From positions 1 to 22,515 of the IMG/VR virus record IMGVR_UViG_3300042517_000657: a DNA stretch of 22,515 nt. One strand, written 5' to 3'. The notes beneath the pieces were generated by a model. That model did not search any database, had not been told where the DNA came from, and was given only the letters and a program-made list of their open reading frames with translations. The number at the start of each line of letters is the position of its first letter. Position 1 is the stretch's first letter. The DNA comes from a virus. Below, in pieces: positions 1,507-20,118 of this stretch. Position numbers and translations under genes: made by a program.

Positions 1507-1514
1507 CCCCTCCT
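1507..1514 (-). promoter_or_regulatory. Strong ribosome binding site of the HExxH gene
   Basis: The transcript reads AGGAGGGG, overlapping the phosphoesterase stop TAG, two bases before ATG 1504. It is a near-perfect anti-Shine-Dalgarno match and settles the start of the HExxH protein. Confidence 0.65.
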
Positions 1515-2418
1515 AGTGTGCAAGCCTGAACTCCGGCACCAGCTCGTAAAGGCTATGGCCCCGCTGCCCGTTGTGCACCCGCCTTGAGCGGAAGTGCAGC
1601 TTCATCCAAACCGCCCCCATCATCTCCGGGGTGCGGCCTTGTTCCACGTGGAACCCCGCGAAGCCGTCATCGAACTCGTCCTTGTAGGTGCCCGTCCTGA
1701 CGTGCCATTGCACGTCGGAAATGACCCGGGCGCCCTCCTTGCCGAGCACCAGCCGCTCCCGCGCCAAGGGCATCACCCATTGCTTGTGCACGTGGCCGCT
1801 GACCACCACGTCGGCGTCGGGGGTGACGGCCGCAGCCCGGCGGACCTTCAGGGTGTCGAAGGACATCAGGGCCGCGCCGCCCGAGCCGTGGAAGTACTTC
1901 AGGAGCAGGCTGTACTGCTGCTGATGGCACCGGGCGACGAAGCGAATCCACCCGCCGTAGCCACCGCTGTGGACCTTGTGCCCGCTGGCCTGGGTCATGC
2001 GTTCGCAAAGCCGCTCGGTCAGGTCGGTCTCGCAGTTCTTGAGGATGGCCGTCTCGTGGTTGCCCCGGCCGATCAAGACGCAGTTCTCGGAGTACGGTGT
2101 GTAGAAGTTGCCCGCGTTCCTGACGAGGGAGTCGAGGTAATCGGCCGCCAGCGCGTCCTCGTCGCGCACCGACTGTCGCGCCCTGCGCGGATCGTACTTG
2201 CCCTGCATGGCGCAGAAGAGATCGCCCACGTCGATCCATCCGCCGCCGGCGGCGACGCACTCGTCCAAGTGCTTCTTCTCAAGGTCGTGCAGGCTATGGG
2301 GGTTGTCGTGGTGGGCGTCCCCCCGGAGCAGGAACGTCCACTCGTCCGTCTTGCTCACGCCCTGCAGCTCCACCGTGTGCACGTTCCTAGCGTGCTGGAT
2401 GACCTTGAACCGCTTCAT
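1513..2418 (-). CDS. Calcineurin-like metallophosphoesterase
   Basis: This 301-residue enzyme contains the order of metal-binding motifs of the calcineurin-like phosphoesterase superfamily: RGDAHHD (D34, H36), DVGDLF (D66), GRGNHE (N120, H121), YFHG (H177) and SGHVHKQW (H209, H211), which bind two metals in the active site. Members hydrolyse phosphate mono- or diesters, including nucleotides and nucleic acids; the substrate here cannot be told. Length and motif spacing are typical, so it is probably active. No signal peptide or membrane segment is present, so it should act in the cytoplasm. ATGA overlap with the lipoprotein gene shows co-translation with lysis-like genes, an unusual place for this enzyme. 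Confidence 0.85.
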   Translation of the reverse strand: MKRFKVIQHARNVHTVELQGVSKTDEWTFLLRGDAHHDNPHSLHDLEKKHLDECVAAGGGWIDVGDLFCAMQGKYDPRRARQSVRDEDALAADYLDSLVRNAGNFYTPYSENCVLIGRGNHETAILKNCETDLTERLCERMTQASGHKVHSGGYGGWIRFVARCHQQQYSLLLKYFHGSGGAALMSFDTLKVRRAAAVTPDADVVVSGHVHKQWVMPLARERLVLGKEGARVISDVQWHVRTGTYKDEFDDGFAGFHVEQGRTPEMMGAVWMKLHFRSRRVHNGQRGHSLYELVPEFRLAH

Positions 2419-3219: not shown

Positions 3220-4758
3220 TCACGAAATGCGCCAGCACAGGAGAGTGTGGTAGTGCACGGCAGAGGCTGGGCTGATGGTGCTGCCGCCCGGTGCGACATC
3301 GGCCGTCAGGTTCTGGAAGCTGTCGTTGCTGCTCTTGATCTGGATGGAAATAAACGCCCAAACGCCGCTGGCGGGAAGGATGACCGCGGTGTTGGTCGGG
3401 AACGTGATCGCCCTCCACGTGCCGAGCGCGGTGCCCGTTCCGCTAATGGGCTTGAAGCCCACGGTCGGGTTGGGGTAGGTCCCGGCAAGGTCACCACCCG
3501 CCGCGCCCGACGGAGCTGCCGTCGGGGTCTGCCAGCTCATGTCGCCGCGCAGGAACGTGCTGCTCGAGGCAGTCCCCGAGGCGCTGATCTTGCCCACGGT
3601 GACCGAGGCGTTCGCCAGCGTGGGGTTGGGGTAGGTGCCCGTGAGGGATCCGCCTGCTGCGCCCGTCGGCGTCCGCGCATCGGACAGGCGCGTATCCGTC
3701 GCTCGCACCGACTGATTGCTAGTGCCGCCTCCGCTCGTGGCAAGGTCGACGGCCAGCGTTCGGTTCGCGGTCAAATTGCCGCCGCCCGTCAAACCCGTAC
3801 CCGCAATGATCTGCACGGTCTCGTCGGCCTTTGCGTCGAGTGCCGCGGTCAGGTTCGTGACCTGCGAAATCTCCAGCGTGACCGGGTCGCTGCCCAAGGC
3901 CCCGTGGCTCGTCGCGTGCGTGGTCGGGGTGCGGGCGTTGGACAGACGGCTGTCGGTCCCCATGACCGCCTGCGTGGAGCTGCCCGCGCCCGAGGGCGCG
4001 AAGTCAACGGCCAGCGTCCGGTTGGCCGACAAGTCGCCGCCGCCTGTCAGGCCGCTGCCAGCCGTGATGGTGCGGCTCGTCGGCACCTTCCCCGCGAGGT
4101 CCGTGGTCAGGTTGGCAACCTGGGCCTGCGACAGGCCGCCGGCGGGGATCGGGTCCGACCCAGCCGAGCCGTGGGTGCTGCCGTGGGTGGTCGGCGTGCG
4201 AGCGTTGGTCAGGCGGCTGTCCGTGGCACTCACAGCCTGCGATCCCGTGCCGCTGCCCGAGGGGGCAAAGTCCACCGTCAGGGTGCGGTTCGCGGACAGG
4301 TCCCCGCCGCCGGCCAAGCCTGCGCCTGTGGTGATGGTGCGCGTCGTGGGCACCTTCCCGGCAAGGTCCGTGGGCAGGTTCACGACCTGCGACTGAGCCA
4401 GAAGCAGCTCGTCGGTCCCGCCGTCCTCGTGGCTGGCGGCGTGCGCGGTCGGGGTGCGAGCGTTCGTCAGGCGGCTGTCCGTGGCCATGACCGCCTGCGT
4501 GCTGGTGCCTCCGCCGCTCGTGGCGAAGTCAACCGCCAGCGTGCCGCTGCTCGTGATCGTCCCGCCCGTCAGGCCCGTGCCGCCTGTCACGCTGGTGACT
4601 GTCCCGGCCGAGGCATTGGTCCAGCCCACCGCATAGTCGGTGTTACTCGTCTTCCGCAGGACCTGGTTGGTCGTGCCGCCTGCGGGAATCCCGGGGTTTA
4701 CGGAGATGTTGATCGTCTCGCCCGAGTTCGTGACGGTGATATAGACGGGGTCGTTCAC
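3220..4758 (-). CDS. Tail fibre with tandem 85-89 residue repeats
   Basis: This 512-residue protein starts at GTG 4758, with GAGG seven bases upstream (the longer frame to 4836 overlaps the previous gene). Residues 61-370 hold about three and a half tandem repeats starting at 61, 146, 235 and 321 (steps 85, 89, 86), each beginning TGLTGG-like and containing the core [13 protein letters not shown]. Residues 366-405 carry [16 protein letters not shown] and a FLRGDMSW element shared with the polyglycine fibre. The C-terminus (440-512) is a distinct beta domain ending [10 protein letters not shown], likely a tip. Such repeats build long trimeric shafts in phage fibres. Repeat copy number sets fibre length. 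Receptor unknown. Confidence 0.8.
3649..4578 (-). repeat. Tandem repeats in fibre gene (~3.5 units)
   Basis: Units begin at 4578, 4323, 4056 and 3798 in transcription order; the last is partial (50 residues). They code for related 85-89 residue blocks with a conserved core of the form ATDSRL(T/S)NARTPT and SANRTL.VDFAPSG. Nucleotide similarity is also high (GTGCGGGCGTT-like strings), so unequal recombination could change the number of units. Confidence 0.75.
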
Positions 4759-4760
4759 GG

Positions 4761-5096
4761 TTACACCTCGCCCGTCGCTGGGTTGACCTGCAGGTTGCCG
4801 CCTGCTACGTAACGGCGGATGACGCCGCCCGTCCATTCGATCTGGAAGTCGAAGCGGCCGTTGCCCGTGTCGAAGGTCGCCGTCGTGGCGGCCGGCACCG
4901 TGATGATCTTCTGCGCCGGGCTTGCCCCAGCCGTAATCATGCCGTTCGTCGTGCTGGCGGTCAGGAACGGCGCCTGGTCAGGGAACGCGCAAATCAGTCG
5001 CCACGCGGTGGCGCTGGCGATGTCCGTCACGCCCGTCATGGTGACGGTGGTCTGGTAGGTCGCGCCCTTGTTGAAGATAACGTTCCATTGGTCCAT
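4761..5096 (-). CDS. Small phage tail-associated protein
   Basis: This 111-residue beta-rich protein starts at ATG 5096, with GGAG upstream. A longer frame running to 5234 was rejected because it would overlap the previous gene. The pattern '[18 protein letters not shown]...' then a Thr/Ala-rich section, then '[20 protein letters not shown]' and '[13 protein letters not shown]' matches a common phage tail-module protein: a beta domain with 'GaTY...vt', 'w.a...', 'G.y.ydl.l...g...rll.G.v.V.p.vt'. I associate it with fibre-attachment or baseplate modules. It lies between two fibre genes. The match is from pattern memory, so the function remains tentative. Confidence 0.65.
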
Positions 5097-5100
5097 ATGG

Positions 5101-5286
5101 TCACTCTCCGGCAGGAGCAGGATAGAAGCGGGGGTCTGCACCCTCGTCGTAAAGGCACCCGATGTCGCACCATTCGCTGTCGCCCAGCTGCACGGCCACG
5201 CCACCAGGCGGCGGCTGCCACTCGGAAACGCCATCCCACACGATGAGGTTGTCCACGATCCCAGAAATGATGACTGCGTATCTCAT
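5101..5286 (-). CDS. Small phage protein, possible fibre chaperone relative
   Basis: This 61-residue protein (MRYAVIISGIVDNLIVWDG, EWQPPPGGVAVQL, CDIGCLYDEGADPRFYP) matches a short N-terminal motif that I recall in many phage proteins located after fibre genes: 'Y-A-I-I-x-x-G-V-V-x-N-I-I-V-W-D-G', then 'W-x-P-P-x-G', then 'x-D-I-G-x-x-Y'. It starts in an ATGA overlap with the fibre stop, and its stop is four bases before the next start. An assembly chaperone role is possible but unproven; the protein is short and lacks the C-terminal helical domain seen in the 131-residue protein at 21109-21504. The gene is credible; function is not known. Confidence 0.65.
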   Translation of the reverse strand: MRYAVIISGIVDNLIVWDGVSEWQPPPGGVAVQLGDSEWCDIGCLYDEGADPRFYPAPAGE

Positions 5287-6698
5287 GAGACGATCAACCG
5301 GACGAACCCGTTGCCTCCAGTACCGCCGTTTCCGCCGCGTGTCACGCTTCCGGCCCCGCCACCTCCGCCGCCGCCGCCATTGATTCCGTTGCCCCCATTG
5401 CCTCCAGCGGCAGACAACGCGCTCCCTCCTCCGCTTCCCCCGCCGCCGGGGCGATAGTTGAAGTCGGCAGTTGCATTATTGCCCGCTCCCCCACCAGCAG
5501 TTCCACCCGGGTTGAGCGTTCCAGCATCTACAGAGCCTCCACGAAGCCACGCATCCGCTCCTGCGTTTTGCGCGGATGCTGTTGCGGTTCCTCCTCCTCC
5601 TCCTCCTTGTGCTCCCATTGGTGACACAGTCGGCGCTGGAGACGAGAATGTGAATCCGCCCGAACTTCCAGCCGCTCCGGCAAATGTCCAGCGGTTGTTC
5701 ATGATCTGGCCTCCGGTTCCTTGGGAGGCACCCGTGCCAGCATTTCCACCATTAGCAGATGCAGCGTATGCAAGTGCCACAGATCCGGAGGTCTTCGTCA
5801 CGGCGCTGAACCCACCGAGTGACCCAGCCGTGCCGCTTGTTCCTGAAGTAGTAGATCCAGTACCACCTGCGCCGCCAAGACCAACGGTGATCGTGAGGCC
5901 CGTACCCGCGCCACCAAGATCCGACACCAAGTATGTCAGATCCGTCAGCCCGCCACCGCCACCTCCGCCTCCACCAAACTTGTTGCCAGCCGTGGTGAGG
6001 AAAAATCCGGATCCTCCACCTCCACCTGCACCGCAACAGACCATCCGAATGGTGGTCGCTCCGCTTGGGATGGTGTAGGTGCCGCTCGACGCGAAGTTCA
6101 CAACAACAGGTGTGAACCCGCCTCCGGCCGTTGCCCATGCCCCATCCCCGCGCAGGTAGGTGCTGGAACTTGGCGTTCCCGTCGCGCTGATCTTGGCAAC
6201 GGTCACCGTGCTGTTGGCGATCTGTGTCGTGCCGATTGCGTTCGCCGCGATGGTCGGATTCGGGTAGGTCCCGGTCAGGCTGCCGCCGGCAGCACCCGTA
6301 GGCGTGCGCGCATTGAACAGGCGGATATCGTCGCCTTCGCAGGCTGTCAGGCTCGTATTGCCGAATGCTACGGCCAGCGTGCCGCTCGTAGTGATCGTGC
6401 CGCCTAGCAAACCCGCGCCGGCCGTGATGCTCGTGACCGTGCCACTGCCGCCGCTGACCGAGGCCCAGGTGCCGTCGCCGCGCAGGTACGTGGTCGCGCT
6501 CGGCGTGCCCGTGGCGCTGATCTTGGTCATCGTGATTGCGCCGTTGGCAACCGTGATGGGGATAATCAGATTGGCGGGCGTTCTGCAATAGATGATGCCG
6601 TCGGCGATGTTGACCGCAAGCTCGCCGTAGGTGATCTCCGCAAGCGTCGGGCTGACGCCGCTAGTGCCGTTGTGCTTCGTGATGATCGTGTCGGTCAT
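5283..6698 (-). CDS. Tail fibre / adhesin with polyglycine tip
   Basis: This 471-residue protein has an N-terminal attachment-like part (ITYGELAVNIADGIIYCRT, 22-40), two copies of a KISATGTP(S/A)..TYLRGDG(T/A)WA element (59-79 and 169-190) and the phrase [16 protein letters not shown] (134-149), all common in phage fibres. Residues 195-471 are a glycine-rich tip of the Gly_rich_2 type: YTIPSGATTIRMVCCGAGGG, runs of up to nine Gly, and a short hydrophobic end NGFVRLIV. Runs of Gly often form polyglycine-II helices in receptor-binding tips. The tip DNA has lower GC than its neighbours (34 of 60 at 5701-5760). The start at 6698 overlaps the previous stop as TAATG. Host receptor is unknown. Confidence 0.8.
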   Translation of the reverse strand: MTDTIITKHNGTSGVSPTLAEITYGELAVNIADGIIYCRTPANLIIPITVANGAITMTKISATGTPSATTYLRGDGTWASVSGGSGTVTSITAGAGLLGGTITTSGTLAVAFGNTSLTACEGDDIRLFNARTPTGAAGGSLTGTYPNPTIAANAIGTTQIANSTVTVAKISATGTPSSSTYLRGDGAWATAGGGFTPVVVNFASSGTYTIPSGATTIRMVCCGAGGGGGSGFFLTTAGNKFGGGGGGGGGLTDLTYLVSDLGGAGTGLTITVGLGGAGGTGSTTSGTSGTAGSLGGFSAVTKTSGSVALAYAASANGGNAGTGASQGTGGQIMNNRWTFAGAAGSSGGFTFSSPAPTVSPMGAQGGGGGGTATASAQNAGADAWLRGGSVDAGTLNPGGTAGGGAGNNATADFNYRPGGGGSGGGSALSAAGGNGGNGINGGGGGGGGAGSVTRGGNGGTGGNGFVRLIVS

Positions 6699-8590
6699 TA
6701 CGAGCCTCCGGTGTAGGTGCCACCGTCCAGCGTCAGGTTCGAGAAGGCGTTCTCGTTGCACTCAACCTTCACGGCGTTCGGCATTGCAAACCAGTACTGC
6801 GTGGCATACGGGGGGTCGTCGACGCACCCTGTATACGCGGTCGGGAACTGCTCAACCATCTGCACGATGGTGCCGACCGAAATGGGCAGCGCGCTGATTG
6901 TTCCGTTGGTGTAGTCCGACTGCTTCACGCCTGGAGCCACCACGTTGCCGACGTTTGCGGCACCCAAGTAGATGTTCCCGTTCTCGGTCAGGTTGCGGGC
7001 CGAGGTGCCGGAGCGCCCCCAGGTCGCCAGCGGGACAGACAGCGGGCACGGGGCGCACGGGTTCGGCTCAACCTCCGACCACGTGTACTCCCATTGCCAC
7101 GGGTTGGTCACCTCGCCGACCGTGCATTCCAGCGCCGACGATGCCGTGATGATCGCCGGGAAGGTGCGCGTGTTGGGCGGGGCCACGTCGATCTGCATGG
7201 CGCCCGACCCCAGCCGGCGGGCGTGCGCGAGGCCCTTGCTGAACGTGATCTGCCCGGGGTCGTTGGTCGGCAGGCCGTTCGGCCCCAGCACCCAATCGTC
7301 CTGGTCGGCCACCGTCAAGGCGAACGGCACCAGCTCCCCGTCGCGCACCCCCACCGCGTAGCGCAGCATGGTGGTCCGGTAGCAGCCGTTCGGCACCCGG
7401 GGCCACCCGGCCCACGCGGTCTGCCCGACGATGACCGAGCACCGCTTGACCAGCAGGGCCATGACCTGCGTCACGTAGGTGTTGTAGTCCCAGCTCGGCA
7501 TCGACGTGCCGTAGATGTTCGTGCCTGGGCTGCTGGCGTTCAGGCTAGTGTTCAGGGAGGCGACCAACGACCGAGGCTCCTTCAGGACCCGGGCGCCGAT
7601 GTTGGTTCGCGCCCTCGAGGTGGCCAGGGTGTTCTGCCAGCCGAACTCCCGGTCGATCACGAACTCCACGTCCCCGGCCTGGTAGTCGGTCGTGTTGTTG
7701 TACTTGGTCTTGCCCTCGATGCTGCGGTACGGGAAGGACACCGTCACCTGCTGGGGCATCCGGTTCTTCTGGTAGTTCGCGTCCCCCTGCCACAGGGTCA
7801 TCAGCGGCTCGGTGCCCGCCGGCGTGGCGCTCGTTGCCTCCACGCCGCCACCGTAGGCCCGCTTGTTGCTGGTCATCCACGTGGCCAGGTCGCCGCTGTC
7901 ATCCTTGACCTCGACCAGCGTGTAGGCGCTGTTTATCACGTCGTACTGCAGCACCCAGCCCGTGGCGGCAAGGACGAAGTCCAGCGCCATTCCGAGGGAG
8001 CATTCGGGCGTAAAGACGTGGTCGGCGATGCGGCTGGTCAGCGCGGCGTTCGGGTTGTAGCCGCCTGGAATCGTGAAGCCGCCAGAGATGGCGGCGAGCT
8101 GCGCCTGCAGCGCCGTCACGAAGGTCAGCGGCGTGGTGTTGTCGGTGACGCCACCCGTGTTCCAGCGGCCGTCCGAGGAGAAGAGAGGCGCCGCGAGCGC
8201 GGCCTGGTTGAGGCTGTTGACCTGGGTCTGCCGCCACCAATAGCGTCGATCCACCGCCTCGACCATCGCGGTGCCCGCGCCGCCGGCCACCATCCAAACC
8301 GGGCGCGGAGGCAGCAGCCAGACGGCCATCGACATGACCGTGGCGTTCGTGCTTTCCTTCCACGAGAAGGTCGCCGTGGCGTTGGTACCCGAGGCGTACA
8401 AAGCCTGCAGCTGCGCCTGATCGACCAGCACTCGGATGCGGGCTTCCCGGCTGGCCCCCGAGGGGATCTCGATAGCGAACAGGTCGGTCTCCGACAAGCC
8501 GACCATGCCCGCGATCTCGAGGATCTCGCGCTCGGGGACCAGCACGGGAATGACGGTCCCGCCCGAGGTGGTGAACCAGGCGCTAATCAT
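6698..8590 (-). CDS. Tail tip protein with C-terminal surface domain
   Basis: This 630-residue protein starts at ATG 8590 (ATGA overlap with the previous stop), not the longer frame that runs 288 bases into its neighbour. The last 143 residues (488-630) form a distinct domain: NPWQWEYTWSEVE, EPNPCAPCPL, SARNLTENGNIYLGAANVGN, VAPGVKQSDY, ALPISVGTIVQMVEQF and YWFAMPNAVKVECN. I associate the order 'W-EYTW-E...RNLxExGNxxxxxxxVG...GTxVxM' with C-terminal domains of phage tail or particle surface proteins. Six Cys in this domain could form disulfides. The rest is beta-rich with Trp/Tyr. It precedes the fibres, so it may be a hub to which they attach. Role inferred. Confidence 0.7.
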   Translation of the reverse strand: MISAWFTTSGGTVIPVLVPEREILEIAGMVGLSETDLFAIEIPSGASREARIRVLVDQAQLQALYASGTNATATFSWKESTNATVMSMAVWLLPPRPVWMVAGGAGTAMVEAVDRRYWWRQTQVNSLNQAALAAPLFSSDGRWNTGGVTDNTTPLTFVTALQAQLAAISGGFTIPGGYNPNAALTSRIADHVFTPECSLGMALDFVLAATGWVLQYDVINSAYTLVEVKDDSGDLATWMTSNKRAYGGGVEATSATPAGTEPLMTLWQGDANYQKNRMPQQVTVSFPYRSIEGKTKYNNTTDYQAGDVEFVIDREFGWQNTLATSRARTNIGARVLKEPRSLVASLNTSLNASSPGTNIYGTSMPSWDYNTYVTQVMALLVKRCSVIVGQTAWAGWPRVPNGCYRTTMLRYAVGVRDGELVPFALTVADQDDWVLGPNGLPTNDPGQITFSKGLAHARRLGSGAMQIDVAPPNTRTFPAIITASSALECTVGEVTNPWQWEYTWSEVEPNPCAPCPLSVPLATWGRSGTSARNLTENGNIYLGAANVGNVVAPGVKQSDYTNGTISALPISVGTIVQMVEQFPTAYTGCVDDPPYATQYWFAMPNAVKVECNENAFSNLTLDGGTYTGGS

Positions 8591-10446
8591 GTGACGAAGG
8601 TCTCGGTCGGCACGCTGTAGCGGGCCGGGTTCGCGGTGGCAAGGTCGAAGACGCTCGCCGTCGTGGCCTGCGATCCCGGGGTGCCAACGGGCGCAAGCGT
8701 GGGAATGATGATCTGATTCGGAGCGCCCCATGCGCGGAGCTGCGCCCCGCTCGGAGTGGTCTGCGTCACGAAGCCCGCCCCGCTGGTGCCCGGGTCGTAC
8801 ATGGCGAAGGTGCGCTCGTAGATACCCGTGAACGTCCGGTTGCCTTGCGCGTCGAACTTGCCATAGGCCACGTGCCAATCGTCATCGGTCAGGTAGGCGT
8901 TCGACGGGAGCGGGCGGATCTCCTTTGGCGGCGCCTGGTTGGACCGCGCAGTCTCCACGCGCTCCGTCACGTAGACGCAGGGCTTGCGCGTCTGCATCGT
9001 CACGTCAGGAGCGTCGATGTACATAGGCGACAGGCGGACGATCCCGCTGTCGTACTTGGCCTTGCTCGTCGAGGTGTTGTGCCCGACGATGGTCGTGTAG
9101 CCGTCGCTATTGTTCGGCGGCTGGTACTGCGTTGCCGAGAACATCCCGTCGAACTGGCTGTTCATCGCAGACACGCCGTCAGCGCCGGCAATGACCGTGA
9201 CCGAAACGGTGCCATAGGTGTTGACGCCCGTGATGTTGAACACGGTCGCCTGCGGCATCGGCTGATTGGTTTGCTCCATGCCGCTGACCGCGTTCTCCAG
9301 CCAATGAGGCAGCATCCCGTAGGTCGTATCCACGCCTGCCGCCGGCGACAGCGGGCCGTAGGAATCCATCGTTCGGTTGACGGTGCGGGTCACCGTGAAC
9401 TTGTTGCCAATCATGAATGCCAGCGGGACCGGGGATGTGCCGCTGCTTGAATCCGACGGCAGCACCATCGCCGTCATCTCAAACCTGATGGCATAGCTGG
9501 ATAGGATGTTCCGCTCGGTCACTCGCAGGCGCTTGATAATCATGCGCTGGTAGGACAGGTTGATCCTGGCCTTTGACAACTGCACCGCTGCTTCCACGAG
9601 CCTTCGATTACCCGTGGTACCCGTGATGCTAGACAGCGACAGGTCGCCCTCAAGGTCGCAGGAGAACTGGACCATCGCATAGCCCTGGGTTTCAGCGGCA
9701 CGTTCGTAGGAGAACTCCATGTCTCCAACGCGCACGCCGTCAGGCAGGTCCAGGGCATACCGCTTGTCCACGATTGTGTAGGACAGCATGGTGCCCGTGG
9801 CATCAAGCGCGAACGACTGCGTCTCGCGCCGCCATCCTTCGCCGATCACCGGAGGAATAATGGCTCGACGGAACAGGTCGGCATAGGCATCCTTGCCCAG
9901 CCACGTCGCCTGGCTTGCAAGGGTCGTGTCCGATCCCGTGGTACTCCGAGCGACCCGGACGGCTCCGCTGATGGTCCACGTCGTTTGCCCAGCGGCATCC
10001 AGCGAAATGCTCGACTGCCACGTGTGGGCCACGACGGTCTGGTTTTCCACGTAGGACGTGCGCCGAGTCACTTCCCACCGCACGAGCGCGAGCTTGTCGC
10101 CCACGATCTCGGTGGTCTCAATCTTGACGTACGGGCCTCCCAGGTCGTCGCCTGTTGCCGCGCTTGCGTCGTAGTAGGCAAACACCGAAAACGTAGGCCC
10201 GGCATTTAGGACCGCAGACAGGGCGCGATTGCCGCCACGATTCAACGCCTGCTCGAGCTCGTTCCATGTTTCATCCGTTTCAATCAGGCCCGTGCCACGA
10301 GCCACGAGCTCTTGCCCGTAGGGAGTCTGTTGGTCGTCCGCGAGCAGCGGCGTGGTGTTCCACGCATCCACGAACACGTTCGTGATGGATACAGTAATGC
10401 CGGGCCGTACCTGAACGTCCAGCGTCGAGCTTGAGTATGCAGGCAT
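8587..10446 (-). CDS. Large beta-rich tail protein
   Basis: This 619-residue protein begins MPAYSSSTLDVQVRPGITVS and is almost entirely beta-like. It contains a basic/helical mid-part (AAVQLSKARINLSYQRMIIKRLRV) and no signal peptide or membrane segment. Coupling to the tape-measure-like gene by TAATG and to the next tail-tip gene by ATGA suggests a baseplate, distal-tail or tail-hub component. I do not recognise a family. It contains a Cys only in a few places (QFSCDLEG, RKPCVYVTE). The middle part (roughly 9450-10400) looks less GC-rich than the head genes, which could mean exchange of this region. Role is inferred from position only. Confidence 0.7.
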   Translation of the reverse strand: MPAYSSSTLDVQVRPGITVSITNVFVDAWNTTPLLADDQQTPYGQELVARGTGLIETDETWNELEQALNRGGNRALSAVLNAGPTFSVFAYYDASAATGDDLGGPYVKIETTEIVGDKLALVRWEVTRRTSYVENQTVVAHTWQSSISLDAAGQTTWTISGAVRVARSTTGSDTTLASQATWLGKDAYADLFRRAIIPPVIGEGWRRETQSFALDATGTMLSYTIVDKRYALDLPDGVRVGDMEFSYERAAETQGYAMVQFSCDLEGDLSLSSITGTTGNRRLVEAAVQLSKARINLSYQRMIIKRLRVTERNILSSYAIRFEMTAMVLPSDSSSGTSPVPLAFMIGNKFTVTRTVNRTMDSYGPLSPAAGVDTTYGMLPHWLENAVSGMEQTNQPMPQATVFNITGVNTYGTVSVTVIAGADGVSAMNSQFDGMFSATQYQPPNNSDGYTTIVGHNTSTSKAKYDSGIVRLSPMYIDAPDVTMQTRKPCVYVTERVETARSNQAPPKEIRPLPSNAYLTDDDWHVAYGKFDAQGNRTFTGIYERTFAMYDPGTSGAGFVTQTTPSGAQLRAWGAPNQIIIPTLAPVGTPGSQATTASVFDLATANPARYSVPTETFVT

Positions 10447-11474
10447 TAGTACGGCCTCCCGGTCATCGCCATGACATCAGCGCGGAACCAATCGTTGACC
10501 TCGCCGGCAAGGTCCTTGGTTCCCGTGTTGGTCTTGATGATCTCGAGGTTCTTCAAGATCTTCTCCAGCCACTGCGGCAGGTTGTCCAGGATTGAGCGAC
10601 CGAATAGCAGTCCTGTCGCACCACCAAAGCCTAGGTAGGTTGAGGCCCGCAGAGTGCGCCGACCAACATCCGCAAGGCTAGTTCCGAGGTCGCGTTGCAG
10701 GAACGTGTCAAGCTGGGAGGTCAAGTAGGATGCAATCTTCTGCGGCAGCGTCAGCTGCAGCATCTGCAATCGAATTGCTCCCGCCGCTCCGATCTTCAGG
10801 ACCGACCAGCCCATGCCGACCGCGGCGGTGATCTTGTTGATGTCGAGCATGGTCGTTGCCCATGCGTTGGCAGCAGCCGTATCCAGCCTCTGCGCGGCGG
10901 CGTAGAGTCGCCCGTTCTCGTGTACCTCGCGCAGGTCGCGCCCAAGCTGGGCGATCTGCTCCCGCGCTTGTCCAAGTGCCAGCACGCTGCTGTACTGCGC
11001 CAGCTCTGAGATTCGCTCCTTGATGGCCTCGTTGGCCCGACGCATCCCAAAGGCAAACGCAGTCACGGCGCCGACGGCGCCGATCAGCCCGGTCGCCCAC
11101 AGCGCCAGCCGGGGTGCGCCTGCCGCCAGCCGACCAAGCATGGACCCGGTGGCGCTAGCGTTGTTCGTCAGCGCCCGGAATCCGGCAATGGTCGGGCGGC
11201 TGAAGAAGTCTCGCAGCTCTGCCGCCGCATCGCCGGCCACGCCGATGCGCGACGTGCCGATGCGCCTAGTCATCGCCTGCCACGCGCTGATGTTCTGCCG
11301 CAGCTGATTCAGGCGCTGCGCGAGCTGCTGCTGCGCCAGCGTCATGGGCTGCATGGTTGCCTGCCCGGTCGGCGTGGACGGGCCACCGCCCGGTGCGCCG
11401 GCCGCCATGCCGCGGCCCGCGCCAGCGCCACCCATGTCCCGGATATTGATGTCGATATGCCCGAGGTCTTCCAT
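10446..11474 (-). CDS. Short tape measure-like tail protein
   Basis: This 342-residue protein has an N-terminal region of Gly/Pro (16-45), a long helical section (LAQQQLAQRLNQLRQN, ISELAQYSSVLALGQ), and one hydrophobic segment at about 122-143 (PRLALWATGLIGAVGAVTAF), a combination seen in phage tape measure proteins. It is the first gene after the chaperones and terminator-like gene, as expected. If it is the tape measure, roughly 1.5 Å per residue predicts a tail near 50 nm, short for a siphovirus. A TTG start at 11489 exists; ATG 11474 was chosen because it sits in a TAATG junction with the previous stop. No peptidoglycan hydrolase domain is visible. Confidence 0.6.
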   Translation of the reverse strand: MEDLGHIDINIRDMGGAGAGRGMAAGAPGGGPSTPTGQATMQPMTLAQQQLAQRLNQLRQNISAWQAMTRRIGTSRIGVAGDAAAELRDFFSRPTIAGFRALTNNASATGSMLGRLAAGAPRLALWATGLIGAVGAVTAFAFGMRRANEAIKERISELAQYSSVLALGQAREQIAQLGRDLREVHENGRLYAAAQRLDTAAANAWATTMLDINKITAAVGMGWSVLKIGAAGAIRLQMLQLTLPQKIASYLTSQLDTFLQRDLGTSLADVGRRTLRASTYLGFGGATGLLFGRSILDNLPQWLEKILKNLEIIKTNTGTKDLAGEVNDWFRADVMAMTGRPY

Positions 11475-11929
11475 TACTTCACCGTCCAATCCATCTCGTA
11501 GCAGTAGTCGTAGGTGTCGCGCAGCGTCAGCCAGCCGTCCATGCCGTCAACGGCCGAGACCGTTCCGCCGTTGCGGAAGATCATGGGGACGAGCATCCCG
11601 GGGTAGAACCGCTGCACCAGGTACTCGCGCAGGGCATCGGCGAACTGCTGCACGCCGATGTCGCCCGAGATGCGTTCGGTGCCGCGCTGCATGGGGTCGA
11701 ACATCCCGCGCCACCACACGACCATATCCACCTGGCTGCGAATCATTCCGACGCCGCTGTTGGGGTGGACGGCCGTGTCTGGGCCGGCGATGATCTGAAT
11801 GGCGTACTGCCCGACGGTCTCGTCGATGGGGCCTTCGGTCACGTACACGCAGTCGCCGTAGCCCGACTGCTGCATCCATTGCGACAGGTCATCGCGCATG
11901 GCGTACAGGATGGTCGCCGTACTAGCCAT
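11474..11929 (-). CDS. Tail terminator-like / minor tail protein
   Basis: This 151-residue protein has a pattern seen in tail terminator (gpU-type) proteins: an N-terminal helix (ATILYAMRDDLSQWMQQSGY), strands QYAIQIIAG and RSQVDMVVWWRGMFD, a helix IGVQQFADALREYLVQRFY, and a C-terminal strand pair DGWLTLRDTYDYCYEMDWTV. Such proteins cap the tail tube at its head end. The location, after the chaperones rather than before the tube, is not the lambda order, so another minor tail role is possible. It overlaps the chaperone fusion stop by eight bases and its own stop overlaps the next start as TAATG. Confidence is moderate. Confidence 0.6.
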   Translation of the reverse strand: MASTATILYAMRDDLSQWMQQSGYGDCVYVTEGPIDETVGQYAIQIIAGPDTAVHPNSGVGMIRSQVDMVVWWRGMFDPMQRGTERISGDIGVQQFADALREYLVQRFYPGMLVPMIFRNGGTVSAVDGMDGWLTLRDTYDYCYEMDWTVK

Positions 11930-12439
11930 TCCGCATCCCCTCCATCATCCGGGCCTGGACCTCGATCTTCTGCGCCAAACGGTCGTTGCCCGTCATCTCG
12001 TAGACCGCTCGCGCCTGCGCCTTGCCGTCGCCGAAGGCGATGGCGATGCCGTTGGCCAGCGTCACAGCCTGGGCGCTCTCGACTGCGGGGATGTTCGCAA
12101 AGAGGCCCATAGCCGTCTCGGGGTCGAACTCGTTGGGCAGGCGACCGTAGGCCGCGAGGAACCTAGCGGCCGCCCTTACACGTTTCCCGCGGCCTGCACG
12201 CGGTTGCTCATCCGCGCCCATGCCGCAAGGAGCACGTGGTCAGGCGCCGACTTGGCGACCTCAGGGGTGCGCGAGGACTCGCGCAGGCACTCCACGATCT
12301 GCGCGGTGGTCGGGTCGGTGCCCGCGGCAACCTTGGCCTGGAGCATCGCCAGCACTTCCATGTACTGGACCACGAGCTGGCCCTGCGGGAGGGTCAGCCC
12401 GAACAGCATGGGATCATCTTCGTCGGAGAGGTTGATCAT
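11922..12439 (-). CDS. Tail assembly chaperone, frameshifted fusion (lambda GT-like)
   Basis: A -1 slip at 12182-12188 joins the short chaperone frame to a downstream frame. Ribosomes read to Asn86, slip back one base, and continue as RVRAAARFLAAYGRLP... to the stop at 11922, giving 172 residues: 86 from each frame. The second frame is helical, with FLAAYGRLPNEFDPETAMG, AQAVTLANGIAIAF and NDRLAQKIEVQARMMEG, and has no good ribosome site for its own ATG at 12221. The relative frame (-1), canonical heptamer, immediate stop and downstream hairpin match the lambda G/GT model. The fusion stop overlaps the next start by eight bases (ATGGCTAG). Product confirmation requires mass spectrometry. Confidence 0.7.
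12150..12171 (-). promoter_or_regulatory. Hairpin downstream of slippery site
   Basis: The transcript shows GGCCGC pairing perfectly with GCGGCC, with AG/CT able to extend the stem after one mismatch around a GTTC loop. It starts 10 bases after the heptamer, slightly beyond the usual 5-9 base spacer, and could stall the ribosome to promote slipping. Confidence 0.55.
12176..12439 (-). CDS. Tail assembly chaperone, short form (lambda G-like)
   Basis: This 87-residue, mostly helical, acidic-to-neutral protein (MINLSDEDDPMLFGL..., AQIVECLRESSRTPE, DHVLLAAWARMSNRVQAAG) lies between the tube gene and the tape-measure candidate, the standard place for tail chaperones. It ends with codons GGA-AAC-GTG-TAA, where G GGA AAC is a canonical -1 slippery heptamer. 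Only two bases separate it from the tube stop and no Shine-Dalgarno is seen, so it is probably coupled to the tube gene. In lambda the short product G and the frameshifted GT are both needed in a fixed ratio to load the tape measure. The role is inferred from context and the slip site. Confidence 0.75.
   Translation of the reverse strand: MINLSDEDDPMLFGLTLPQGQLVVQYMEVLAMLQAKVAAGTDPTTAQIVECLRESSRTPEVAKSAPDHVLLAAWARMSNRVQAAGNV
12182..12188 (-). promoter_or_regulatory. Slippery heptamer GGGAAAC for -1 frameshift
   Basis: In the chaperone frame the codons read GC[G GGA AAC] GTG TAA. The heptamer fits the X XXY YYZ rule in the correct zero frame (lambda uses GGGAAAG). The stop follows two codons after GGA-AAC, and the -1 frame is open for 86 more codons. 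Confidence 0.75.
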
Positions 12440-12441
12440 GG

Positions 12442-12909
12442 TCAGGGGGTGTAGGTGTAGAAGCCGTCGCTGCCCGGGATCGCCATGAAGTTCAGCGTGA
12501 GCACGCGCTCACGGTTGCCCCATTGCGAATCGCCCGTGCCTTCAGGCTGCAGGAAAGCGTAGTTGAACGTGTAGTTCTGCGTGCCGCTGACGCTGTCGAT
12601 CTGCAGCGGGAAGTAGGCGCCGTCGGAGATGATGCGCCGGCCGACCGGGCTGGCGTTGTACGCACCGCGCTGGTCCGCCAGCATCGCCTGATAGATCGAC
12701 GCATCCCACTTGACGAGGGCCACGGAGATGCGGGCGACCGTGCCCTGGAGGACGATCTCCTCGGGGGCGGCGCCGCTCATCACCGTCTTGACCTCGTGCT
12801 GGTAGTCGGTGAACTGGATGGCGGGCAGGTTGTCGTTGTCAGAGAAGCCCAGCGTGGTGCCGTTGACGATGACCTGCGTGGGACCGGGGACGTAAATCAG
12901 AGCTGCCAT
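12442..12909 (-). CDS. Probable major tail tube protein
   Basis: This 155-residue protein would polymerise into the tail tube. It is beta-rich and contains IVLQGTVARISVALVKW, then DGAYFPLQIDSV, then NYTFNYAFLQPEG and RERVLTLNFMAIPG, a pattern of strands and a small conserved ending that I associate with tube proteins of siphoviruses. Position supports it: it is the gene just before a pair of frames with a programmed frameshift signal, where tail chaperones follow the tube gene in lambda and relatives. AAAGG precedes ATG 12909, and it starts 1 base after the previous stop. The call is inferred mainly from gene order and composition. Confidence 0.7.
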   Translation of the reverse strand: MAALIYVPGPTQVIVNGTTLGFSDNDNLPAIQFTDYQHEVKTVMSGAAPEEIVLQGTVARISVALVKWDASIYQAMLADQRGAYNASPVGRRIISDGAYFPLQIDSVSGTQNYTFNYAFLQPEGTGDSQWGNRERVLTLNFMAIPGSDGFYTYTP

Positions 12910-17530: not shown

Positions 17531-18607
17531 TCAGCCCGCGATGAAGCCGGGGTCGGGGAACTCCCCCGAGTCGATCAGGCGCTGCCGCGCCCCGTTGTGC
17601 TGGCGGATGGCGTCCACGTTCGGGTTGCCGTCCTTGTCCGCCCAGCCCCGCGAGACGGCGGTGGCGATTGGCACCGGGGTCCAGCTGCAGCGGCATTGGA
17701 AGCCCGCCGGCGTGGGAATGCCCATTGCGTCGATCATCTCGGTGGTGGCGACGTAGCCGTCCATCGCCTTGTGGCTCGGCCGGGTGCGCTTGTCCTTCGT
17801 GGCGCGGTACTGCACCAGTGGGACGAACCGCTTGGCGGTCGGGTCGCGGCAGATGTCTAGGCGCCCCTGGCTGCTGGCCCGGTTCAGGTTGGTCCGGTAG
17901 ACGTTCTCAAGCCGGGCGTCGGTCAGGTCCTCGCCGACCTCGAGCAGCTCCTTGGCTTGATCGACGAAGTCCGCGAGGCCCATCTGCTTCAGTCGCTTCG
18001 TGGCCTTGTCGCGGGTCTCCTGCCCGCGCACGACTTTTCCCAAGAGGCCCCGCAGCTCTGCCGTCGTTTCCCGGGATAGCCCGGTCACGAAGAACCCGGT
18101 CTGCGCGGCCTTCTGCACCCCGGGGGTGCGGCGGATCTCCACCTGCTCGGGCAACTGCCCGGGGAAGACCAGCGCCCGGAACTGGGGGCTGACATCGGCC
18201 ATCTTCTGCACGGCGGTCGCCTGCTCGTCGGCCCGCAGCTCGCGGGCGGCGTCGAACGCCTTGCGGATCAGGTCATCCCAGCGAGCGCGGGTCAGGGGGA
18301 CGGTCTCCATCCAACGAGCAACCATCTCGCGGGCAGGCCCCGGCTCAAACTCCAGCAGCATGCCGTCGGGCTGGGCGAACTGGACGGCCTTCGCGCCCGG
18401 TACGGGCACGCCGGCGCTCTTCAGGCTGGCGGCGGCACCCGCTGCCCACGAGGACAGGAGCAGGGCGGCGGTGTCCTGCTCCCATGCGTCCCAGGCCGCC
18501 GTCGCGTCCTCTCCAGCGATCTGGGCGGCGATGGCGGCCCGATAGGCGTCCGCCCCGTCCTGCAGGGTCTCGGCGTACAGGCTGGGGATGTCGGCCTGCT
18601 TTGCCAT
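17531..18607 (-). CDS. Mu gp30 / F-type phage head morphogenesis protein
   Basis: This 358-residue protein would be a minor head component acting with the portal during capsid assembly. The C-terminal third carries the Mu F-type signature: NVYRTNLNRASSQGRLD (236-251 region), QYRATKDKRTRPSHKAMDG (266-284) and the Cys pair FQCRCSWTP (303-311), typical of the family's core. The first 200 residues are mostly helical. A start at 18616 is possible, but ATG 18607 sits in a TAATG junction with the portal stop, like several other junctions here, and was preferred. A 62-base gap follows before the protease gene, one of the two longest non-coding stretches in the window. A short overlapping frame beginning in this gap was rejected. 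Confidence 0.9.
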   Translation of the reverse strand: MAKQADIPSLYAETLQDGADAYRAAIAAQIAGEDATAAWDAWEQDTAALLLSSWAAGAAASLKSAGVPVPGAKAVQFAQPDGMLLEFEPGPAREMVARWMETVPLTRARWDDLIRKAFDAARELRADEQATAVQKMADVSPQFRALVFPGQLPEQVEIRRTPGVQKAAQTGFFVTGLSRETTAELRGLLGKVVRGQETRDKATKRLKQMGLADFVDQAKELLEVGEDLTDARLENVYRTNLNRASSQGRLDICRDPTAKRFVPLVQYRATKDKRTRPSHKAMDGYVATTEMIDAMGIPTPAGFQCRCSWTPVPIATAVSRGWADKDGNPNVDAIRQHNGARQRLIDSGEFPDPGFIAG

Positions 18608-20118
18608 TACCACCACGAGCGGCGGCTAAAGGTCCGGGGAGCGCCCTCGGCGGGCGGGGCGCCTTCGAGGGGCATGGGGAGGGAGAAGCCGCCGAGGCCC
18701 GCCACGCCGGCGGTGTCGGGCTGCGCTCCCAGCACGGCGTCGCCCTCGGCGGGCTGCGACAGGCCGAGCAGGTCGCGCACCTCGCGCTCGCTGACGGTGC
18801 CGCCCATCGCCACGAACTTCTCGATGGCCTCAAGGCGCTCCTTGGGGTCCGGGCGCTCGGGCGCGAAGACGAAGCGGATGCGCTGGGCAAGGTCCTCGTC
18901 GGCGCCCAGCATCCGGGCGACCACGCGCACAAAGTCCTGGGTCAGGCTGTCGGCGAGGGCGTCGGCGTGGTAGCGGATGATCCGGGACAGGGTGTCGGCG
19001 TGCAGGTTTGCCACGCCCGAGCCGAGGCCCGTGGACCCCGCCTCGCTGGACAGCGACTGCCCGAGGATGGCCTCCTTGAGCTTGGCGCTGAACCAGTCGA
19101 TCAGCTCCATGAACACCTGCGCCCGGCCAGCGTTCGGCTCCTTGATGTCGATGTCGTAGATGCGCTCGGTCCCCGACTGCGGCAGCAGCACGCTGTTGTC
19201 GTTGGTCAGGTTGGCGAGGACGTTCTCCATCATGTTCCGGCCAGCGTCCTGGCCGAGGGGGTAGTACCCCACGCGAATGCCCATCGCGTACCGCTCGGCG
19301 TAGGTGATGGCGTCCTGCAGGACCTCCTGCTTCGCCAGCCACATGAACCAGCAGACATCGCGGGCGCCGACGCCACGGTAGATGGCCTCGGTGCTGTTCG
19401 GGTCGTTGAAGTCAGGCGCGGCCACGAACACCCGGTGCAGGACCACGGCGCGGCGCTCCTGCTCGGTGAAAATGTGGACCCGGGAGTCGAAGCCGATGTT
19501 GGCGGAGCTTGGGCCGTTGTTGGCGTACTCCGCACCCACGCGCATCGACAGGTTGCCCCATTGGTCATAGGCCAGCGTGTCGGGGTGGAACGGGTACCAC
19601 TCCTTGATGGCCACGCCCAAACGCGGGTCGGTGCGATAGACCAGGTTCGCCGCCGAGTTGCCGTACCAAACCGCCTCGTGCATGGAGCGGACGAAGTCCG
19701 ACCGCCGGGGCATGGTCTCGTAGATCTTCTGGATGCGCTCGGCCAGCTTGTTGGCTTCCTCGTCGGTCTCGTCATCGGCCACGACCGCGAACTCGAGGGA
19801 AGCCAGCGTCACCTGCAGGGACCGAAGGACGCCTTCGATGTCGGCGTCCGCCCGCATCATCATCTGATACTGCGGGTTCAGCCGATAGGCCATGCTGCTC
19901 GAGCGCAGCATCTTGTCGGCCGTCGTGAAGAACGACCGCTGCAGCTCGACGGGCGTTCCCAGCGGAACGTTGATGCCACGGTCCAGCGGGGGCGGCAGCG
20001 GCTTCTTTGGGCGGTCCTTCGGGGGGATGCCGTTCTGCAGGCTGTTCGGGCTGACGGGCGCCGGCACAGCGTTGGGGCTGAAGGGCTGCTGGTTGGTGAC
20101 CTTCTGTCGCTTTGCCAT
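18607..20118 (-). CDS. Mu gp29-like (DUF935-type) portal protein
   Basis: This 503-residue protein would form the dodecameric ring at the capsid vertex through which DNA is packaged and ejected. The strongest signature is the block at residues 352-397, containing LGQSLSSEAGSTGLGSG and NLHADTLSRIIRYHADALAD, which I associate with the Mu gp29/DUF935 portal family. The adapter-like N-terminal half includes YQMMMRADADIEGVLRSL (84-101), and the length is usual for this family. A Pro/Lys-rich segment (about 18-60) precedes the folded part. An AAGG site lies upstream of ATG 20118. The stop overlaps the next start as TAATG, coupling portal and head-morphogenesis synthesis, as expected of adjacent Mu gp29 and gp30 homologues. 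Identification rests on recognised motifs and gene order, without a database search. Confidence 0.9.
   Translation of the reverse strand: MAKRQKVTNQQPFSPNAVPAPVSPNSLQNGIPPKDRPKKPLPPPLDRGINVPLGTPVELQRSFFTTADKMLRSSSMAYRLNPQYQMMMRADADIEGVLRSLQVTLASLEFAVVADDETDEEANKLAERIQKIYETMPRRSDFVRSMHEAVWYGNSAANLVYRTDPRLGVAIKEWYPFHPDTLAYDQWGNLSMRVGAEYANNGPSSANIGFDSRVHIFTEQERRAVVLHRVFVAAPDFNDPNSTEAIYRGVGARDVCWFMWLAKQEVLQDAITYAERYAMGIRVGYYPLGQDAGRNMMENVLANLTNDNSVLLPQSGTERIYDIDIKEPNAGRAQVFMELIDWFSAKLKEAILGQSLSSEAGSTGLGSGVANLHADTLSRIIRYHADALADSLTQDFVRVVARMLGADEDLAQRIRFVFAPERPDPKERLEAIEKFVAMGGTVSEREVRDLLGLSQPAEGDAVLGAQPDTAGVAGLGGFSLPMPLEGAPPAEGAPRTFSRRSWW

Follow-up and report, generated by a model that had tools for sequence, protein, structure and literature searches.

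Comparative analysis of an uncultivated virus lineage points to a putative tail assembly chaperone made in two forms by a conserved −1 ribosomal frameshift

In phage lambda, the chaperone pair directly precedes the tape measure gene and the slip site is GGGAAAG, which ends in G. The two lambda products, gpG and the rarer fusion gpGT, depend on a −1 slip at an X_XXY_YYZ heptamer late in the first tail chaperone gene (PMC5009743). GGGAAAC is the tail-chaperone slip site in phage KL1 (PMC3483164), in Colossus (PMC3556154) and in HCTV-1 (PMC5009743), and AAAAAAC takes this place in phiCbK (PMC3556154) and HCTV-2 (PMC5009743). In KL1, HK97 and SPP1, the chaperone pair and the tape measure are separated by a single gene (PMC3483164). 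Slippage in E. coli is far more efficient at heptamers with a final AAG than at heptamers with a final AAC (PMC5009743).

We analysed a stretch of 22,515 nucleotides, hereafter the window, which corresponds to positions 1 to 22,515 of the IMG/VR virus record IMGVR_UViG_3300042517_000657. On its minus strand, a zero-frame ORF that we call G (12176..12439) encodes 87 amino acids, the short form of a putative tail assembly chaperone, and ends with GCC GCG GGA AAC GTG TAA, the TAA being at 12176-12178. The slippery heptamer G_GGA_AAC (12182..12188, minus strand) is in phase one codon ahead of the G stop and begins 13 nt before the end of that stop. In the −1 frame, the run from GGG AAA, GKRVRAAARFLAAYGRLP..., extends as far as the stop at 11922. 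This T part (11922..12188, minus strand, stop 11922-11924) reads GKRVRAAARF... and would be the C-terminal half of a fusion in which a slip after AAC decoding gives 86 + 86 = 172 residues. The first-pass annotation had claimed an in-phase GGGAAAC beside a stop, a −1 frame open for 86 codons past the slip and a 172-residue fusion made beside the 87-residue form; the first two are borne out on the minus strand, and the predicted fusion length follows from the frame arithmetic. It had also judged such a site improbable by chance. Indeed, the window's genes contain only five in-phase X_XXY_YYZ heptamers (Y = A/T) in approximately 7,183 codons. By chance, about 0.09 such heptamers should fall within 25 nt of a gene end, and one was found. 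The decisive evidence, nevertheless, is the conservation of the site in 75 distinct loci, described below.

The described pair most like this one is gp18/gp19 of Burkholderia phage vB_BceS_KL1, in which a short tail ORF likewise has GGGAAAC right before its stop, with a −1 extension, one gene separates the pair from the tape measure and a tube candidate lies upstream (PMC3483164). The two loci differ in that the KL1 forms have 142 and 264 amino acids instead of 87 and 172, and in that the downstream hairpin of KL1 is weak when folded (−6.8 kcal/mol, z +0.60). Between KL1 and the window, we detected no sequence relation for G, T or the intervening protein, even by profile comparison. The pre-tape-measure chaperones of the Caulobacter phages phiCbK (AAAAAAC) and Colossus (GGGAAAC) use two heptamers that both occur in the present family (PMC3556154), although these are other phages with other proteins. 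The haloarchaeal viruses HCTV-1 (G_GGA_AAC) and HCTV-2 (A_AAA_AAC) have matching slip sites in their g-t genes, but in archaeal hosts (PMC5009743). With lambda gpG/gpGT, the likeness lies in the slip near the end of the first gene and in the rarer fusion; no sequence relation to the window's G and T was seen.

Relatives were drawn from IMG/VR, and 75 distinct loci were compared. Searches with only the T half and with only the G half each yielded a set of loci, and the same picture emerged from both. Without exception, the 75 loci have the second ORF in frame −1 relative to G and an in-phase X_XXY_YYZ heptamer 10 or 13 nt upstream of the end of the G stop. This heptamer is GGGAAAC in 63 loci, GGGAAAA in 11 and AAAAAAC in one (L017), where the encoded G-N has become K-N and the heptamer pattern is retained. 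The G protein is kept in 31 divergent relatives at 43-84% identity, the T part of relatives is 44-78% identical to that of the window, and T homology starts exactly at the slip site. Among 50,697 phage records there was no nucleotide match to the window; tblastn of the G and T halves against cultured phages gave chance-level matches only, and the window's tail proteins likewise had no convincing tblastn match there. No relative with either half that could point to a host came up in GTDB species genomes. As proposed at first pass, comparison with relatives thus supports a −1 slip that would link two ORFs of the tail-chaperone type.

We compared codons at the slip in 32 sequences less than 95% identical. 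All 31 that have glycine at this site encode it by GGA, and the lysine read in the −1 frame is AAA in 32 of 32. Elsewhere in these proteins, each invariant glycine is encoded by three or four different codons; G20, for example, is GGC in 13, GGG in 10, GGA in seven and GGT in two, and over the pooled genes GGA accounts for 18% of glycine codons. Because these internal-control glycines share the same phylogeny, relatedness alone does not explain the fixed slip codons. In the window's long minus-strand ORFs, lysine is AAG 143 times and AAA once (of 144), yet the −1 slip codon is AAA. The A-site codon in the family is AAC or AAA, never AAG, which is mildly notable though it has precedents.

T could alternatively be translated on its own: reinitiation, or coupling to G, would begin at the ATG at 12221 or at a different start codon, and the heptamer would be incidental. 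Indeed, an ATG lies in the T frame of the window (12219..12221, minus strand; offset −33), and some other divergent relatives have one at the same offset. This ATG is a by-product of an Ala-Trp pair in G (GCA TGG), and no Shine-Dalgarno-like sequence precedes it. In relatives, the position holds ATG, GTG, TTG or CTG where the Trp is kept, as GCN TGG dictates, and mostly no start codon where Tyr or Phe replaces it. In 14 of the 32 sequences, the T frame contains no ATG, GTG or TTG from −60 to +15; five of these 14 (L031, L049, L050, L052 and L070) have a T frame that opens no earlier than 6 nt before the slip. Since a start is absent or the frame closed in these relatives, and since T homology begins at the slip, independent initiation is not the general way in which T is made; it would, moreover, leave the fixed GGA and AAA codons and the hairpin unexplained. 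We consider it very improbable. The first-pass annotation had named translation of T only from the ATG at 12221 as an outcome that would speak against frameshifting, and the 14 relatives with no start, among them the five with a closed frame, do not uphold it.

We then aligned the region downstream of the heptamer in 40 sequences less than 90% identical. The family shares a stem of 11 pairs, in which offsets 14-24 from the heptamer start pair with offsets 42-52. This hairpin starts 6-7 nt past the heptamer, inside the spacing of about 5-9 nt that was looked for. Paired cells amount to 86.8% in the alignment vs 77.4% (sd 0.9) when the 3' letters are shuffled, and drop to 32-50% once the partner is displaced by 1-3 columns. 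Cells in which both sides have changed number 42, vs 12.1 in shuffles, and the protein tree requires at least 4, 8, 9 and 6 changes of pair type at the four covarying positions. At T residue 17, a leucine, TTG occurs with a facing A in 10 sequences and CTN with a facing G in 12, with one exception; this choice is synonymous in the protein, and the count is a plain table that represents few independent pairs on the tree. Against a synonymous-codon null that keeps the T protein, folding of the hairpin has a mean z of −1.9 over 32 sequences, and energies in the family range from about −12 to −33 kcal/mol. Two loci, L043 and L047, are exceptions with no stable hairpin. Both have GGGAAAA slip sites (L043:5853-5922 and L047:5798-5867) and, having lost the stable hairpin, constitute natural tests of how far it is needed. 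No consistent upstream Shine-Dalgarno-like stimulator was seen by eye.

A frame change by transcriptional slippage, with no part played by ribosomes, could be imagined for the six consecutive A of L017. The homopolymers of GGGAAAC are, however, no longer than three, and a covarying hairpin 6-7 nt past an in-phase X_XXY_YYZ is a ribosomal arrangement; we regard this explanation as practically negligible. Programmed −1 ribosomal frameshifting at GGGAAAC is, in contrast, strongly supported by these comparisons, since it alone would explain together the phase of the heptamer, the constancy of the −1 frame, the fixed GGA and AAA codons, the covarying hairpin and the missing T starts.

In the window itself, the predicted stimulatory hairpin (12139..12175, minus strand) has a 6 nt spacer from the heptamer and an MFE of −25.2 kcal/mol. 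Its lower stem pairs GGGCGGCCG (12175-12167) with CGGUCGCCU (12147-12139), and its upper stem pairs 12165-12160 with 12153-12148. In the window's clade the stem register is slipped by four bases vs the family: the eight inner pairs of the lower stem have a predicted probability of 0.99-1.00, vs 0.00 for the family register there. The shifted stem recurs in L003 with its eight inner pairs intact. The window hairpin folds modestly better than its synonymous null (z −1.5). The first-pass annotation had placed the hairpin elsewhere, in an inverted repeat (12150..12171, minus strand) formed by GGCCGC at 12171-12166 and GCGGCC at 12155-12150. The repeat does lie 10 bases past the heptamer and a hairpin does follow the slip site, but the stem predicted is the longer GGGCGGCCG/CGGUCGCCU one. 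Against it, GGCCGC/GCGGCC is predicted not to form, with a pairing probability of 0.00, and this pairing is fully possible in only 3 of the 40 divergent sequences; we therefore rejected it as the functional stem.

The genes follow on the minus strand in the order Mu-type portal, head genes, neck protein (PHROG 26 match, 9.2e-7), 155-aa tube candidate, G, T, 151-aa gene and 347-aa tape-measure candidate, and this order is retained in the relatives examined. The candidate for the tail tube, or major tail protein (12442..12909, minus strand; 155 aa), lies upstream of G and was assigned by gene order and PHROG matches: 9 of 19 members of its family match PHROG 2175 'protein with Ig domain' (best 1.2e-6), and one member weakly matches a major tail protein PHROG. 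The tape-measure candidate (10446..11489, minus strand; 347 aa) is fast-evolving and has a central hydrophobic stretch. In relatives, it measures 256-379 aa and, except in the closest, is 20-35% identical to the window's copy; single members of its family give weak matches to tape-measure PHROGs. Both assignments are weak and mainly positional. The highly conserved 151-aa gene (11474..11929, minus strand) overlaps the T stop and has a mean column identity of 75% over 18 sequences; no PHROG or Pfam model matches it, and by its size and place it is possibly a tail terminator. The earlier statement placed the pair between tube and tape-measure genes; it lies between the two candidates, with the 151-aa gene separating it from the tape-measure candidate.

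The G and T halves match no PHROG or Pfam model, and their families are uncatalogued in both collections. The AlphaFold2 model of G is a beta hairpin plus helices (pLDDT 87) and that of T is all helical (pLDDT 91.8); Foldseek found no match to either model in the PDB at E<=0.001. In BFVD, G comes closest to an unnamed viral protein of 89 aa (TM 0.76, E 5.9e-3), and a named tail assembly chaperone appears only at E 1.5. A PDB profile match of the G half to guanosine deaminase (E 0.0025 over 40 residues) received no support from Foldseek and was set aside as a local chance similarity. The chaperone function is likely on the basis of gene order and architecture, not homology; known chaperones are highly diverse.

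Frameshifting could also be real while its products are another tail or connector protein pair, and not chaperones of the tape measure. Neither half matches known chaperone families or solved folds, and the small tape-measure candidate owes its identification mainly to its position, length variation and hydrophobic stretch. The place between tube and tape-measure candidates, the sizes of 87 and 172 aa and the −1 linkage are, on the other hand, the hallmark of the chaperone class, and the same layout with one intervening gene occurs in KL1, HK97 and SPP1 (PMC3483164). We find this alternative rather unlikely. Very probably, from the sequences compared, the G and T ORFs give rise to two forms of one tail assembly chaperone through a −1 ribosomal frameshift.

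In the proposed mechanism, most ribosomes would read G through to its stop and give the 87-aa form, while a minority would pause at the hairpin during decoding of GGA and AAC. The paused tRNAs would slip one base back onto GGG and AAA, presumably in tandem, and translation would resume at CGU in the −1 frame to give the 172-aa G-T fusion. On the model of lambda gpG/gpGT, the G part may coat the tape-measure protein, the T part of the rarer fusion may recruit tube subunits, and both G and G-T would leave the finished tail. The slip site, its phase, the frame relation, the hairpin and the lack of a dedicated T start are supported by the comparison; the efficiency of frameshifting, the tandem slip and the chaperone role are what we infer from it. 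More speculatively, the pair might be unrelated by descent to known ones, its G/G-T frameshift design reached independently, and the use of AAC and AAA might reflect host tRNAs that slip at AAC better than those of E. coli; we hold this to be doubtful.

The new element is a known frameshift design in protein families that match nothing in PHROGs or Pfam. With it, the conserved frameshift of tail chaperones, a device well known in tailed phages, reaches an uncultivated lineage that has a Mu-type portal and no close cultured relative; the current understanding of the frameshift mechanism stays as it was. A family profile is now ready for annotation. In addition, the 40 divergent slip cassettes with covarying hairpins form a data set on how hairpin register and A-site codon relate to frameshift efficiency.

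Elsewhere in the window, the portal gene (18607-20118, minus strand) matches Pfam Portal_Mu at 1.8e-48 and is the sole clear tie to Mu-like phages. The chaperone halves, the 151-aa gene and a 619-aa gene have no relative among the 50,697 cultured phage records; a Mu-like head is thus joined to a tail module without cultured relatives. Two putative tail-fibre genes (3220-4836 and 5283-6761, minus strand) have repeated motifs in common, for instance 'TYLRGDGxW', which suggests repeat exchange or duplication. Beyond the tail-end genes, the gene at 1513-2418 (minus strand) matches a DNA repair exonuclease PHROG (phrog_7339, 3.2e-9).
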